Source of the DNA: Candidatus Nitrosopumilus sp.
GTDB taxonomy: Archaea > Thermoproteota > Nitrososphaeria > Nitrososphaerales > Nitrosopumilaceae
Reading direction: 5' to 3'
NCBI GenBank assembly: GCA_013911135.1
Contig: JACERO010000075.1
Location: forward strand, 1 to 64,000
Length of the DNA stretch: 64,000 nucleotides
Part shown: positions 11,226 through 15,657 of the stretch, in pieces
Layout: each line of letters opens with the position of its first letter
How positions within the stretch are numbered: position 1 is the first letter of the stretch
Notes under the pieces: model-generated
Told to the model about the DNA's origin: nothing
Database searches by the model: none
Seen by the model: the letters and a program-made list of their open reading frames with translations, nothing else
Position numbers and translations under genes: made by a program

Positions 11226-11681
11226 ATGAAACAGTACCTTCAAAATAAAACATTATATACTTGGGTACCTTATTGTACGGTAAGGGAAAGTAAATTGCCA
11301 AAAGCAGGATTCAAATCAATTACCGTTTCAGAGACTGTTTATGATAAATTCCATGATGTCTTTCTAAAGAGCAAAGACGACCTTGCAATGAAAGGTGTCA
11401 ACAGCTTTTCAGGTTATGTAACTTACATGTTAGAGGAGATGATGCAAAAGGACAAGACCTTTGCAAGATATGCTCCAAAGATTGAAAAAATTTCTGTAGA
11501 TGATGATCGTGTAATACTAAAAGATAATATCAAAAATAGAATTGCAGAAGTTGCAGTTCAGAAAGGAGAACTATTCTGCCAGCTTTGTGAAGAAAAAGAT
11601 TGTGTACATGTTGGCTTTGTGTTTTCACTGCCAGATGTTTACGAAGTTCTAAACGCTAGAGGAATCAAACATCCAAAATAG
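11226..11681 (+). CDS. Hypothetical protein with SWIM-like zinc motif
   Basis: FCQLCEEKDCVHVGFVF near the C-terminus; N-terminal FKSITVSETVYDKF resembles ribbon-helix-helix; true start may be internal. Confidence 0.6.
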   Translation: MKQYLQNKTLYTWVPYCTVRESKLPKAGFKSITVSETVYDKFHDVFLKSKDDLAMKGVNSFSGYVTYMLEEMMQKDKTFARYAPKIEKISVDDDRVILKDNIKNRIAEVAVQKGELFCQLCEEKDCVHVGFVFSLPDVYEVLNARGIKHPK

Positions 11682-11686
11682 AGTAA

Positions 11687-11808
11687 TGGAGGAGGCGGGA
11701 TTTGAACCCGCGAACTCCTGAAAGACAGGATCACCCATTATTTGATCTTAAGTCCTGCATGTCCAAAAGCACCAAGTGCTTACTTTGGCCAGGCTTGATT
11801 ACTCCTCC
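11687..11808 (-). tRNA. tRNA-Leu (TAA) with two introns
   Basis: Acceptor GGAGGAG/CTCCTCC; T-arm GCGGGTTCAAATCCCGC; anticodon CTTAAG^A. Introns inferred at 11761-11782 (22 nt) and 11732-11746 (15 nt); mature length 85 nt. Confidence 0.88.
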
Positions 11809-11900: not shown

Positions 11901-11974
11901 GCTTCGGTAGCTCAGTCTGGTAGAGCGTTACATTGGTAATGTAAAGGTCACGGGTTCAGATCCCGTTCGAAGCT
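11901..11974 (+). tRNA. tRNA-Thr (GGT)
   Basis: Acceptor GCTTCGG/TCGAAGC; anticodon loop TTGGTAA; T-arm CGGGTTCAGATCCCG; discriminator T. Confidence 0.92.
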
Positions 11975-11975
11975 T

Positions 11976-12836
11976 CTAATAATTTTTAATCAATAACTCA
12001 AAGTGTCCAGTTCTCTTTTTAGAGTTGGAGTTAATTGAACGATTAGCCTGAATCTTTCTTACTTTCCAGGGTTTCTTTGCAAACATATCTGCAACTTCTT
12101 TAGAATCAGAATTTGACAAAAGAACCCGACATCCCTTTGAATCTAATTTCATACAAAGCTCTGATAGTCTACTCAAATCATCCAATGTAAAATTCTTGTT
12201 TGTGTAACTAGTAAAGTTGGCAGTTTGGCTAACTGGTTGATATGGAGGATCAAAGTATACAAGATCTCCTTTTTTGGCATCTCTTAGAACTGCCTCAAAA
12301 TCACGGCATTTTATTGAAACTCTACTTGATTGGAAAATATCACTAACAGAACGAAGATTCTCCTCATTTACAATATTTGGATTTGTGTACTTTCCTAGAG
12401 GTACGTTGAATTTTCCTTTGCTATTAACGCGATACAATCCATTGAAACAAGTCCTATTCAAAAAGAGTAATCTTGATGTCTTTTCAATTTCGCTTCTAGG
12501 GTTAGTATCTCGAACAGAGTAATAGTAAGATTTTGAATCTTTTTGATAATTTCTTTCATGATTCTTTAGAGAACTGATTAGTTCATCAATTCTGTCTCGA
12601 ATAGTAGTATAGGCCAATACCAAGTCAGAGTTAAGATCAGAGATGTTACATTTTTGCCCATTTCGCTCAGTTAGGATATGAAACAGTAATGCACCACCAC
12701 CTAGAAACGGCTCATAATAGGTTCCAAATGTGTTAGGTAAATTTTCATTAAGAATTGGAATTAGTTGACGTTTTCCTCCAGCCCATTTTACAAATGGTTT
12801 TGGAGTTCCAAGAATTTGGCGATAGGTCTGTTTCAA
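11976..12836 (-). CDS. Dam/D12-class N6-adenine DNA methyltransferase
   Basis: PFVKWAGGKRQLIP (motif I), YYEPFLGGGALLF, VYFDPPYQP (DPPY motif IV). Confidence 0.93.
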   Translation of the reverse strand: MKQTYRQILGTPKPFVKWAGGKRQLIPILNENLPNTFGTYYEPFLGGGALLFHILTERNGQKCNISDLNSDLVLAYTTIRDRIDELISSLKNHERNYQKDSKSYYYSVRDTNPRSEIEKTSRLLFLNRTCFNGLYRVNSKGKFNVPLGKYTNPNIVNEENLRSVSDIFQSSRVSIKCRDFEAVLRDAKKGDLVYFDPPYQPVSQTANFTSYTNKNFTLDDLSRLSELCMKLDSKGCRVLLSNSDSKEVADMFAKKPWKVRKIQANRSINSNSKKRTGHFELLIKNY

Positions 12837-13024: not shown

Positions 13025-13675
13025 TTAGTCCCACTTTGACCAAGCGGCCATCCATCGGTACGTCCAAGTGTTAAGTTTAACACCCAACGCAGCCATCGTG
13101 ACTGACAATACTGCACCGGCACCGGCACCCAGCGCTACTGGACTGTTATAGAACTTTCCTACCTGCGGTTCTATCGGTGTCATGTATGGTGGTAATGTTG
13201 GTCTCGGATATTTGAACGCCGTTTCAAGCGGGTCTGCTACTGTTATCAGGTTTACCATGTTAAACAACGGTAATGACATTCCTACCAGTACGCCGCCGAA
13301 CAGTATCAAGGAGTGCTTGTTCTTCTTTGTTGCCCAGTAAACCAAGTCCAATAGCATTGCTGATGGTAGCCAAACTGGAGTTACAATGAAGTCATATGGA
13401 TATCCTAGTGAAAACCATGCACCTTTTGCTATCCATGTGTATACTGTCATAATTAGAGCGTAGTACGTCGCTGTACCTGGAACACCTGTAAACGTTAGGT
13501 AATAACATGCACCTACTACAAGCATCAACGTTTGCGATATTGAAAATACCGTAAATGAAGTCCAAGCCCAATCGGTATAGAAAATGTAGTCTCCTGCATT
13601 AATTGTTAACAGTGTAGAGTTAACTGCAACTACTACTATGAATAAGTAGTGTGTACATCGTCTTAACCAGACCAT
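13025..13675 (-). CDS. amoA: Archaeal ammonia monooxygenase subunit A
   Basis: 216 aa; characteristic AmoA sequence MVWLRRCTHYLFIVVVAVNSTLLTINAGDYIFYTDWAWTS... Confidence 0.98.
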   Translation of the reverse strand: MVWLRRCTHYLFIVVVAVNSTLLTINAGDYIFYTDWAWTSFTVFSISQTLMLVVGACYYLTFTGVPGTATYYALIMTVYTWIAKGAWFSLGYPYDFIVTPVWLPSAMLLDLVYWATKKNKHSLILFGGVLVGMSLPLFNMVNLITVADPLETAFKYPRPTLPPYMTPIEPQVGKFYNSPVALGAGAGAVLSVTMAALGVKLNTWTYRWMAAWSKWD

Positions 13676-13695
13676 ATCCTGTAGAATAAGGGGTC

Positions 13696-13710
13696 AGTAT
13701 ATAAAATTAT
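13696..13710 (-). promoter_or_regulatory. Putative TATA box of amoA
   Basis: AATTTTATATACT on the minus strand about 25 nt upstream of the amoA start; consistent with a short or absent leader. Confidence 0.5.
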
Positions 13711-13786
13711 TGAGTATAATTCAGATCGATATATTAATTTTAAAGTAAAATTAAAAAGAAATGTGACTGAAGGGGTTTCCTTCTAG

Positions 13787-14149
13787 TTACCAACCAACGT
13801 ACATTGATACGAAAAGTACGAATACAACTGAAGCAGCTATACTGCCACCAACTATACCATTACTATTCTTGTTGGAACCTTCTTCCATGACTTTAACACA
13901 GAAGATGTAACCTATTGCCTCAATGATTGCAAGTACGATGAATGCAAAGTGACCACTTGCTGTTGGATATGCCCAAGGATAATAGAAATATCCTGCTGCT
14001 GTTCCAGCTGCAGTTGCAAATATTGCTGCCCAGTATGAAATAGTTATCATACCAGTCATGTTTTCAACGCGTCGTCCAATCATTCGTTCTACATCAGCAC
14101 TTGATGCTCCACCAGCGCCGCCAGAACCGAATCCTTTAGGAAGAGTCAT
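13787..14149 (-). CDS. amoX: AmoX (archaeal AMO-cluster membrane protein)
   Basis: 120 aa, three hydrophobic helices, located between amoA and amoC. Confidence 0.88.
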   Translation of the reverse strand: MTLPKGFGSGGAGGASSADVERMIGRRVENMTGMITISYWAAIFATAAGTAAGYFYYPWAYPTASGHFAFIVLAIIEAIGYIFCVKVMEEGSNKNSNGIVGGSIAASVVFVLFVSMYVGW

Positions 14150-14267
14150 TATGGATTTATTCTAATGCAGAATCCTTTTAAATCTTTCTTAGGCTGCAGG
14201 TTCTAAAACGATCTAAATCAGATTCAAAATAATGAAAGAGAAAAAAGTGTGCTATTGCACTTTTTGT

Positions 14268-14843
14268 CTATGGAATTGATCTGCTGTACAATTTGCCTTC
14301 TAAGGCCATCTTGTACATCTCTGCAATATACGGATTCTCACCTGGAGTCTCTGCACCTAGTTCTACGAGTCTAGCATATACTCTGACTACGTATGCAAGT
14401 GCACCCATGAATGCAACTACTACACCCATGTTAAACATCCAGTGATTTGGAACCGAAAATATTTCTTCTACAAACCAGAAATGCCACATCTCATTGACTC
14501 CAATTGTAAACATAGTTGCAAGGTAACCAAGGATGGTCATCTTCAAACCTGTGTTCATTGAATTATTTGGACCTCTGAGAATTGGTATTTTTCTATCATA
14601 GATTGCTGCTGCTCCCCATCCAAGTGGTAATGTAATGAAGTGGGAATACAACCACCAGTGTGCTGGAGTAAATGCACTATCTCTGATAGAAGTCTGATGT
14701 AGAGAACCATCAACGAAGTTATCTACTTCGACTGATGCTGCAGTAGATCCCATAGCAATAACGATGAGCCAGACTTTCTTTAGTCTCTGGATCTCAACTT
14801 CTTTTGGGATTAATGCGGGCATCTGTGCCATGGTATTAATCAT
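14268..14843 (-). CDS. amoC: Archaeal ammonia monooxygenase subunit C
   Basis: MAQMPALIPKEVEIQRLKKVWLIVIAMGSTAASVEVDNFVDGSLHQTSIRDSAFTPAHWW; likely start at 14831. Confidence 0.97.
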   Translation of the reverse strand: MINTMAQMPALIPKEVEIQRLKKVWLIVIAMGSTAASVEVDNFVDGSLHQTSIRDSAFTPAHWWLYSHFITLPLGWGAAAIYDRKIPILRGPNNSMNTGLKMTILGYLATMFTIGVNEMWHFWFVEEIFSVPNHWMFNMGVVVAFMGALAYVVRVYARLVELGAETPGENPYIAEMYKMALEGKLYSRSIP

Positions 14844-14987
14844 GTAAATTCGGAATATAAAGTAAGAGTTTTGAGAGTAGTATATTTTTGTGAAATTATT
14901 TATAAAATCTTTGGAAAATTTTGAAAATACTTAATTTTAAATAGTTTAAAATAGAAATAATTTTAATATTTTTTTACCACTTTCGTT

Positions 14988-15007
14988 GTTAATCATCAAT
15001 GATTAAC
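14988..15007. promoter_or_regulatory. Inverted repeat GTTAATCAT-CA-ATGATTAAC in the amoC/amoB divergent region
   Basis: Perfect 9-bp arms with a 2-bp spacer, between divergent amoC (start 14843) and amoB (start 15088). Confidence 0.6.
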
Positions 15008-15087
15008 ATCCTGTTAGATATCGATCCTCGTTATGAAGGTAAAACATATAACGACGTGCACTATCTTTCTGAATATTAGGGATAAAT

Positions 15088-15657
15088 ATGGTCAAAAAAA
15101 AGATTCTCGTATTTGGACTAGCTGTTGTACTTGCCCTAGGAACTTTAGGTTTCAACTGGGTTGAATCCATTCTTCCAACTGCAGATGCACACGGTGTCCA
15201 AGCACAACTCCAGAGTCGTTTCATTAGAATTGAAGATGAAACCTTTAACAGACAATCCCTCCAAACTGGCGAAACCTTGACACTTCAAGGAACACTAGTC
15301 AGTCTTGTAGAAAGAGACCTAAGAGGATGGTTATCTATTTTCTCAGAATCTACTAATGCTGGAAACAGATGGGAGATGTTGGCAAGAGATCCACCAGGAA
15401 ATGTCTTTGATATTTCAGGAAATGCTATCATCGAATATTCACTATCTGCTAAAGCACTTGAAGCAGGTGTTTACCACGTACACACCCAACTCAATGTAGC
15501 AAAAGTAGGTCCAGGACTTGGTCCAGGTCAAACAGTTGTCGTTGAAGGAGATCCAATAATCAAACCAATTCCATATACCAATATCGCATACCAATCAATT
15601 ATCATTGGTGTTGGATATGTAATCACGTTTGCAACACGACCCTGGCAAGTAATTTAA
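15088..15657 (+). CDS. amoB: Archaeal ammonia monooxygenase subunit B
   Basis: 189 aa; signal/TM plus cupredoxin-like domain (HGVQAQLQSRFIRIEDETFNRQSLQTGETLTLQGTLVS). Confidence 0.97.
   Translation: MVKKKILVFGLAVVLALGTLGFNWVESILPTADAHGVQAQLQSRFIRIEDETFNRQSLQTGETLTLQGTLVSLVERDLRGWLSIFSESTNAGNRWEMLARDPPGNVFDISGNAIIEYSLSAKALEAGVYHVHTQLNVAKVGPGLGPGQTVVVEGDPIIKPIPYTNIAYQSIIIGVGYVITFATRPWQVI

Follow-up and report, generated by a model that had tools for sequence, protein, structure and literature searches.

A tRNA-Leu(UAA) gene of Nitrosopumilaceae with one intron in the D-arm and one at position 37/38

The stretch of 64,000 nucleotides analysed here (the window) carries what is almost certainly a working, single-copy tRNA-Leu(UAA) gene, the transcript of which contains two introns cut by the archaeal splicing endonuclease. 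One intron interrupts the 3′ side of the D-stem and the other occupies the canonical site behind the anticodon. The host, with a genome of 1.71 Mb, is an ammonia-oxidising archaeon, since the genes for archaeal AmoA, AmoC and AmoB lie at 13025-15657 of the window. An essential tRNA of an abundant group of ammonia oxidisers is invisible to common gene finders unless both introns are excised. Furthermore, a non-canonical intron that is confined to one isoacceptor yet order-wide, together with a clade in which both introns have been lost, constitutes a natural experiment on the retention and loss of archaeal tRNA introns.

Gene anatomy and intron motifs

The first-pass annotation had proposed a minus-strand gene from which removal of segments of 22 and 15 nt leaves an 85-nt class II tRNA; the sequence, the coordinates, both removed segments and the product proved exact to the base (Table 1). 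The discriminator A73 lies at 11687 and CCA is not encoded, and the anticodon TAA is found at 11750-11748. In exon 1, the 5′ strand of the D-stem (ATC) corresponds to nt 10-12 (11799-11797) and the D-loop CCAA to nt 20-21; the T-arm of exon 3 reads GCGGG-TTCAAAT-CCCGC. The position of intron 1, 23/24, was numbered backwards from the anticodon. The D-stem (ATC/GAT), the anticodon loop (CTTAAGA), the variable arm and the T-arm are formed only once both introns are out. In the spliced form all stems are intact, and the product has the long variable arm, 3-bp D-stem, TAA anticodon and A73 of a class II tRNA-Leu(UAA). That removal of intron 1 restores the D-stem, as had been claimed, is borne out by ARAGORN, which folds the spliced form as tRNA-Leu(taa). 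A Leu(TAA) pattern run over the host genome, which is 98.6% complete, gave a single match, the present gene.

Table 1. Positions of the tRNA-Leu(UAA) gene, its parts and its neighbours in the window
Feature	Position	Strand	Description
pre-tRNA-Leu(UAA), whole gene	11687-11808	-	122 nt; mature 85 nt
Exon 1	11783-11808	-	acceptor 5′ strand, nt 8-9, D-stem 5′ strand, D-loop, A22, G23
Intron 1	11761-11782	-	22 nt, TAAGCACTTGGTGCTTTTGGAC; between nt 23/24, D-stem 3′ side
Exon 2	11747-11760	-	A24, T25, G26, anticodon stem 5′ CAGGA, loop CTTAAG
Intron 2	11732-11746	-	15 nt, ATCAAATAATGGGTG; canonical 37/38
Exon 3	11687-11731	-	A38, anticodon stem 3′ TCCTG, variable arm, T-arm, acceptor 3′ strand, A73
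tRNA-Thr(GGT)	11901-11974	+	divergent neighbour of tRNA-Leu(UAA)
D12-class adenine DNA methylase (PF02086)	11976-12836	-	directly adjoins tRNA-Thr(GGT)
151-aa protein gene	11226-11681	+	converges on tRNA-Leu(UAA); no Pfam match

Most relatives within the family, and some genomes of sister families, have retained tRNA-Leu(UAA) and tRNA-Thr(GGT) as neighbours. The place of the D12-class methylase is likewise conserved in most of the family relatives examined, and the 151-aa gene lies beside tRNA-Leu(UAA) in almost all of those fetched.

Intron 1 has a 4-bp central helix between CCAA of the exon and TTGG of the intron, 3-nt bulges cut at AG^T and AC^A, and an inner, intron-side helix of 6 bp (AAGCAC/GTGCTT). 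This pairing exceeds chance: among 200,000 shuffled versions of the 22-nt segment, just 8 reached four central and six inner pairs. On the exon side of the 3′ bulge, the helix consists of one pair (19-25) in 86 of 87 precursors, and the D-arm intron does not take the strict hBHBh′ form, in which both flanking helices are present. Because there is no exon-side helix beyond this single pair, the motif is filed as the relaxed hBH type rather than a full bulge-helix-bulge (BHB), and its cleavage would therefore rely on a tolerant enzyme. The earlier description of an almost ideal BHB thus stands for the central and intron-side helices but not for the exon side. The ViennaRNA fold of the precursor, in which the 22-nt insert is a stable hairpin, contains a central helix of 5 bp, in which the bulge is displaced by one base and the pairs are as many as in the 4-bp register. 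This 5-bp register was rejected, as relatives unable to form the extra pair (e.g. L013, L014) favour the register with 4 bp.

The central helix of intron 2 (CTTA/TGGG) is built on the anticodon loop, and two of its four pairs are G-U. Its exon-side helix is the intact anticodon stem; the intron-side helix is absent, with just a short loop past the central helix, so that the strict hBHBh′ form is not found here either and intron 2 is of the HBh′ type. All four central pairs form in 74 of the 89 precursors scored. The second intron had been described as lying at the canonical 37/38 site with a weaker BHB, and the two G-U pairs and the missing inner helix agree with this.

Comparative test of the splice points

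Sequences fetched from relatives were parsed with the intron boundaries held at a constant distance from exon anchors. In 83 distinct intron-bearing precursors, the predicted frame allows every one of the 249 D-stem pairs (10-25, 11-24 and 12-23 in each) to form, compared with 170 or 197 when the frame is shifted by one base and 120 when the precursor is read unspliced. No shifted splice pattern gave a better D-stem, and other splice frames for intron 1 were rejected on this one-base shift test. The pairs appear in compensatory forms (G-C or A-T at 10-25, T-A or C-G at 11-24, C-G or A-T at 12-23), with at least one double change for every D-stem pair; the 83 precursors are related rather than independent, so independent compensatory events are fewer than the counts suggest. 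The motif of intron 1 is conserved as well. Its central helix forms four of four pairs in 79 of the 83 distinct relatives and three of four in the other four precursors, and a contiguous inner helix is missing in five of the 83. A 4-pair central helix accompanied by at least two inner pairs was present in 69 of 83 relatives versus 18 of 16,600 shuffles. The inner helix covaries, with GC, AT, CG and TA all occurring at its third pair; the loop is variable, and the intron measures 13-25 nt in the relatives.

Three other explanations were weighed and rejected. It is very improbable that the D-arm intron is a recent insertion of a mobile element. Such an origin is proposed in a passage of PMC3293823 for the 24/25 intron in tRNA-Thr of Caldiarchaeum, which provides a precedent in a related lineage, and a D12-class adenine methylase gene adjoins the neighbouring tRNA-Thr. 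This methylase, however, is kept in synteny and is not an integrase, and the intron occupies the same position in most family genera and in several families of the order; moreover, no D-arm intron was found in any tRNA-Leu other than UAA in 20 genomes sampled across the order. Even less credible is the idea that only the 37/38 intron is spliced and that the 22-nt hairpin stays in the mature tRNA as a D-arm insertion. The hairpin is stable in the predicted fold and a D-loop extension would be tolerable in principle, but its retention would prevent formation of the D-stem, and yet the three pairs are kept, with compensatory changes, in 83 of 83 precursors. In addition, the insert almost always offers TTGG opposite the exon CCAA, its length varies over the range given above, and it is missing at the same locus in one clade. 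Finally, a pseudogene or decaying copy, with an intact tRNA-Leu(UAA) elsewhere in the genome, would account for the failure of standard finders to report the gene, but has next to no probability given that this is the sole Leu(TAA) pattern match in a nearly complete genome, that its stems are intact after splicing, that one locus is kept across the family, and that no Leu codon is used more often in the window than UUA (TTA, 33% of Leu codons in 42 ORFs).

Splicing endonuclease, proposed pathway and visibility to gene finders

The host genome contains two PF01974 genes. The alignment of the 178-aa product with crenarchaeal endonuclease subunits of solved structure spans its full length, and the Tyr/His/Lys positions are conserved in it; the 199-aa product aligns with the Methanocaldococcus enzyme, with the histidine missing. 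As judged from these alignments, the two would fit a catalytic alpha and a structural beta subunit of an (alpha-beta)2 enzyme, and they are predicted to assemble and to cut the tRNA-Leu(UAA) precursor. Thaumarchaeota are reported to have alpha2-beta2 endonucleases that accept relaxed motifs, and the relaxed hBH and HBh′ motifs have been described for archaea with enzymes of this type (PMC4090602; PMC7714728). Taken together, the comparative evidence and the two putative endonuclease subunits make splicing of both introns by the archaeal endonuclease, as originally suggested, the best-supported reading of the gene.

According to this model of two-intron splicing, CCAA in the D-loop of the precursor would be base-paired to TTGG, close to the 3′ terminus of intron 1, which would itself close as a hairpin; below the anticodon stem, CUUA of the anticodon loop would likewise be paired to UGGG in intron 2. 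In each bulge the (alpha-beta)2 endonuclease would cleave after the second base (AG^U and AC^A for intron 1, AG^A and UG^A for intron 2), and the exons would be joined by the tRNA ligase RtcB, which is expected in archaea. The D-stem would form for the first time after exon joining, and the mature tRNA would read UUA. The analysis shows the anatomy of the gene, comparative support for the two splice points, the pair of endonuclease subunits and the distribution, whereas transcription, cleavage, ligation and splicing order are inferred.

The gene was expected to be missed by default tRNA finders. ARAGORN reported four tRNAs in the window, the pre-tRNA-Leu(UAA) not among them, and the Rfam tRNA model run on the window likewise did not detect it. 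When the unspliced precursor was submitted alone, ARAGORN found no gene, even when introns were allowed. Removal of intron 1 alone yielded a gene only under that setting, with the anticodon mis-called (aag), and with both introns removed ARAGORN returned tRNA-Leu(taa) and the complete cloverleaf was restored. The expectation thus holds for ARAGORN and Rfam, but the archaeal mode of tRNAscan-SE 2.0 applies as standard a BHB model that was trained on introns of Thaumarchaeota (PMC8450103). Since the two introns hide tRNA-Leu(UAA), tRNA counts will be wrong for such genomes unless they come from tRNAscan-SE 2.0 run in archaeal mode.

Distribution and loss of the introns, and related systems

The combination of a D-arm intron with a 37/38 intron, which the first-pass annotation had considered uncommon, is instead the normal state of tRNA-Leu(UAA) throughout the family and in much of the order. 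A gapped tRNA-Leu(TAA) pattern matches 192 of 251 family genomes and 20 of 22 genera, with no matches for a reversed-pattern control, and both introns are present in nearly all of the matches listed for the family (20 genera). The sister families f10, f11 and f12, together with part of f3, likewise have both. Several f3 genomes have the 37/38 intron only; one f9 genome (G285, L039) has the D-arm intron only, which at 13 nt (AGGGCTCTTGGAT) is the shortest seen, and its 37/38 intron is absent. Looser patterns applied to complete matchless genomes added G053, G248 and G250 in the family and, in f11, G316, in which the D-arm intron is longer. For the genomes still without a match, the cause may be gaps in the assembly, variant sequences or genuine absence. 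The nine genomes that belong to the class but lie outside the order showed no clear D-arm intron at 23/24. Both introns are inherited and not recent insertions. In another order of the class, Leu(UAA)-like genes of two genomes (L125 in G340 and L134 in G339) carry insertions that do not parse at 23/24 and are possibly introns at other positions.

Sixteen genomes of the window's genus have a tRNA-Leu(UAA) with neither intron. Their gene (L061-L065 and 11 further) also differs in nt 22, which is changed from A to C, and in the pair 27-43, changed from C-G to T-A. Among the five fetched, the 151-aa gene flanks tRNA-Leu(UAA) in 5 of 5, and tRNA-Thr and the adenine methylase lie on the other side in all four whose stretch reaches that far. 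The intron-free gene keeps the same neighbourhood, and the introns were therefore lost in place. Because no one-intron intermediate was seen within the family, the sequences suggest a single event in which both introns were lost via a copy of the mature tRNA. We also entertain a wider proposal, which is speculative and in our judgement unlikely, that the 23/24 intron is functional and has for this reason stayed at a single site, in a single isoacceptor, ever since the common ancestor of much of the order, and that it disappears only along with the 37/38 intron, when the gene recombines with a mature-tRNA copy. The function might, for example, be to delay formation of the D-arm until the transcript is processed, or to bar the integration of elements. 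The idea of loss by recombination is prompted by the intron-free clade of 16 genomes.

The tRNA-Leu(UAA) introns belong to a kind of archaeal tRNA intron that is already known, and non-canonical introns of Thaumarchaeota are documented. Archaeal pre-tRNAs with two or three introns, D-arm positions and 37/38 included, have been described (PMC4090602; PMC3218864). The tRNA-Pro(UGG) of Pyrobaculum islandicum, with introns at 25/26, 37/38 and 56/57 (PMC4090602), resembles the present gene in that short introns, a non-canonical one in the D-arm or stem and a canonical one at 37/38, are combined in one pre-tRNA, but it is a different tRNA, from another phylum, and the position used here is 23/24. 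Like the multi-intron pre-tRNAs of that study, the tRNA-Leu(UAA) precursor has relaxed hBH/HBh′ motifs that an alpha2-beta2 endonuclease is expected to cut; whereas introns of Thermoproteales spread between tRNAs (PMC4090602), the set found here is stable across much of an order. With tRNAscan-SE 2.0, 107 non-canonical introns were counted in Thaumarchaeota (PMC8450103), of the same phylum and intron class as the present one; the main text of that paper does not name tRNA-Leu(UAA), but the set very probably includes its D-arm intron in sequenced Nitrosopumilus genomes. In the related lineage of Candidatus Caldiarchaeum subterraneum, multiple introns were reported for tRNA-Leu(UAA) and a 24/25 intron for tRNA-Thr(GGU) (PMC3293823). 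The likeness lies in D-arm introns within the genome and in the same isoacceptor having more than one intron; for tRNA-Leu(UAA) the comparison covers the number of introns. Our literature search found no paper naming the tRNA-Leu(UAA) intron pair in Nitrosopumilaceae, which may well be listed in GtRNAdb or in supplementary tables. Possibly new are the order-wide age of intron 1, its limitation to the UAA isoacceptor and the fact that one clade has lost both introns in place; deep conservation, the single isoacceptor and the in-place double loss are the most interesting part of the finding.

Other tRNA genes of the same genome also appear to be interrupted. By inspection, tRNA-Tyr, tRNA-Leu(CAA), tRNA-Ser(GGA) and tRNA-Glu(CTC) (L042, L043, L044 and L053), which lie on other contigs, have apparent 37/38 introns, the D-arm intron being absent from tRNA-Leu(CAA). 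In a tRNA-Met(CAT) gene outside the window (L041; contig C41 of G000, about 81838-81952, plus strand), the anticodon stem is apparently interrupted at 30/31 by a non-canonical intron of 40 nt (CCAG^TTCG...GGCAAT^ACTCATAATCTGG), with a candidate central helix, TGCC/GGCA, identified by eye.
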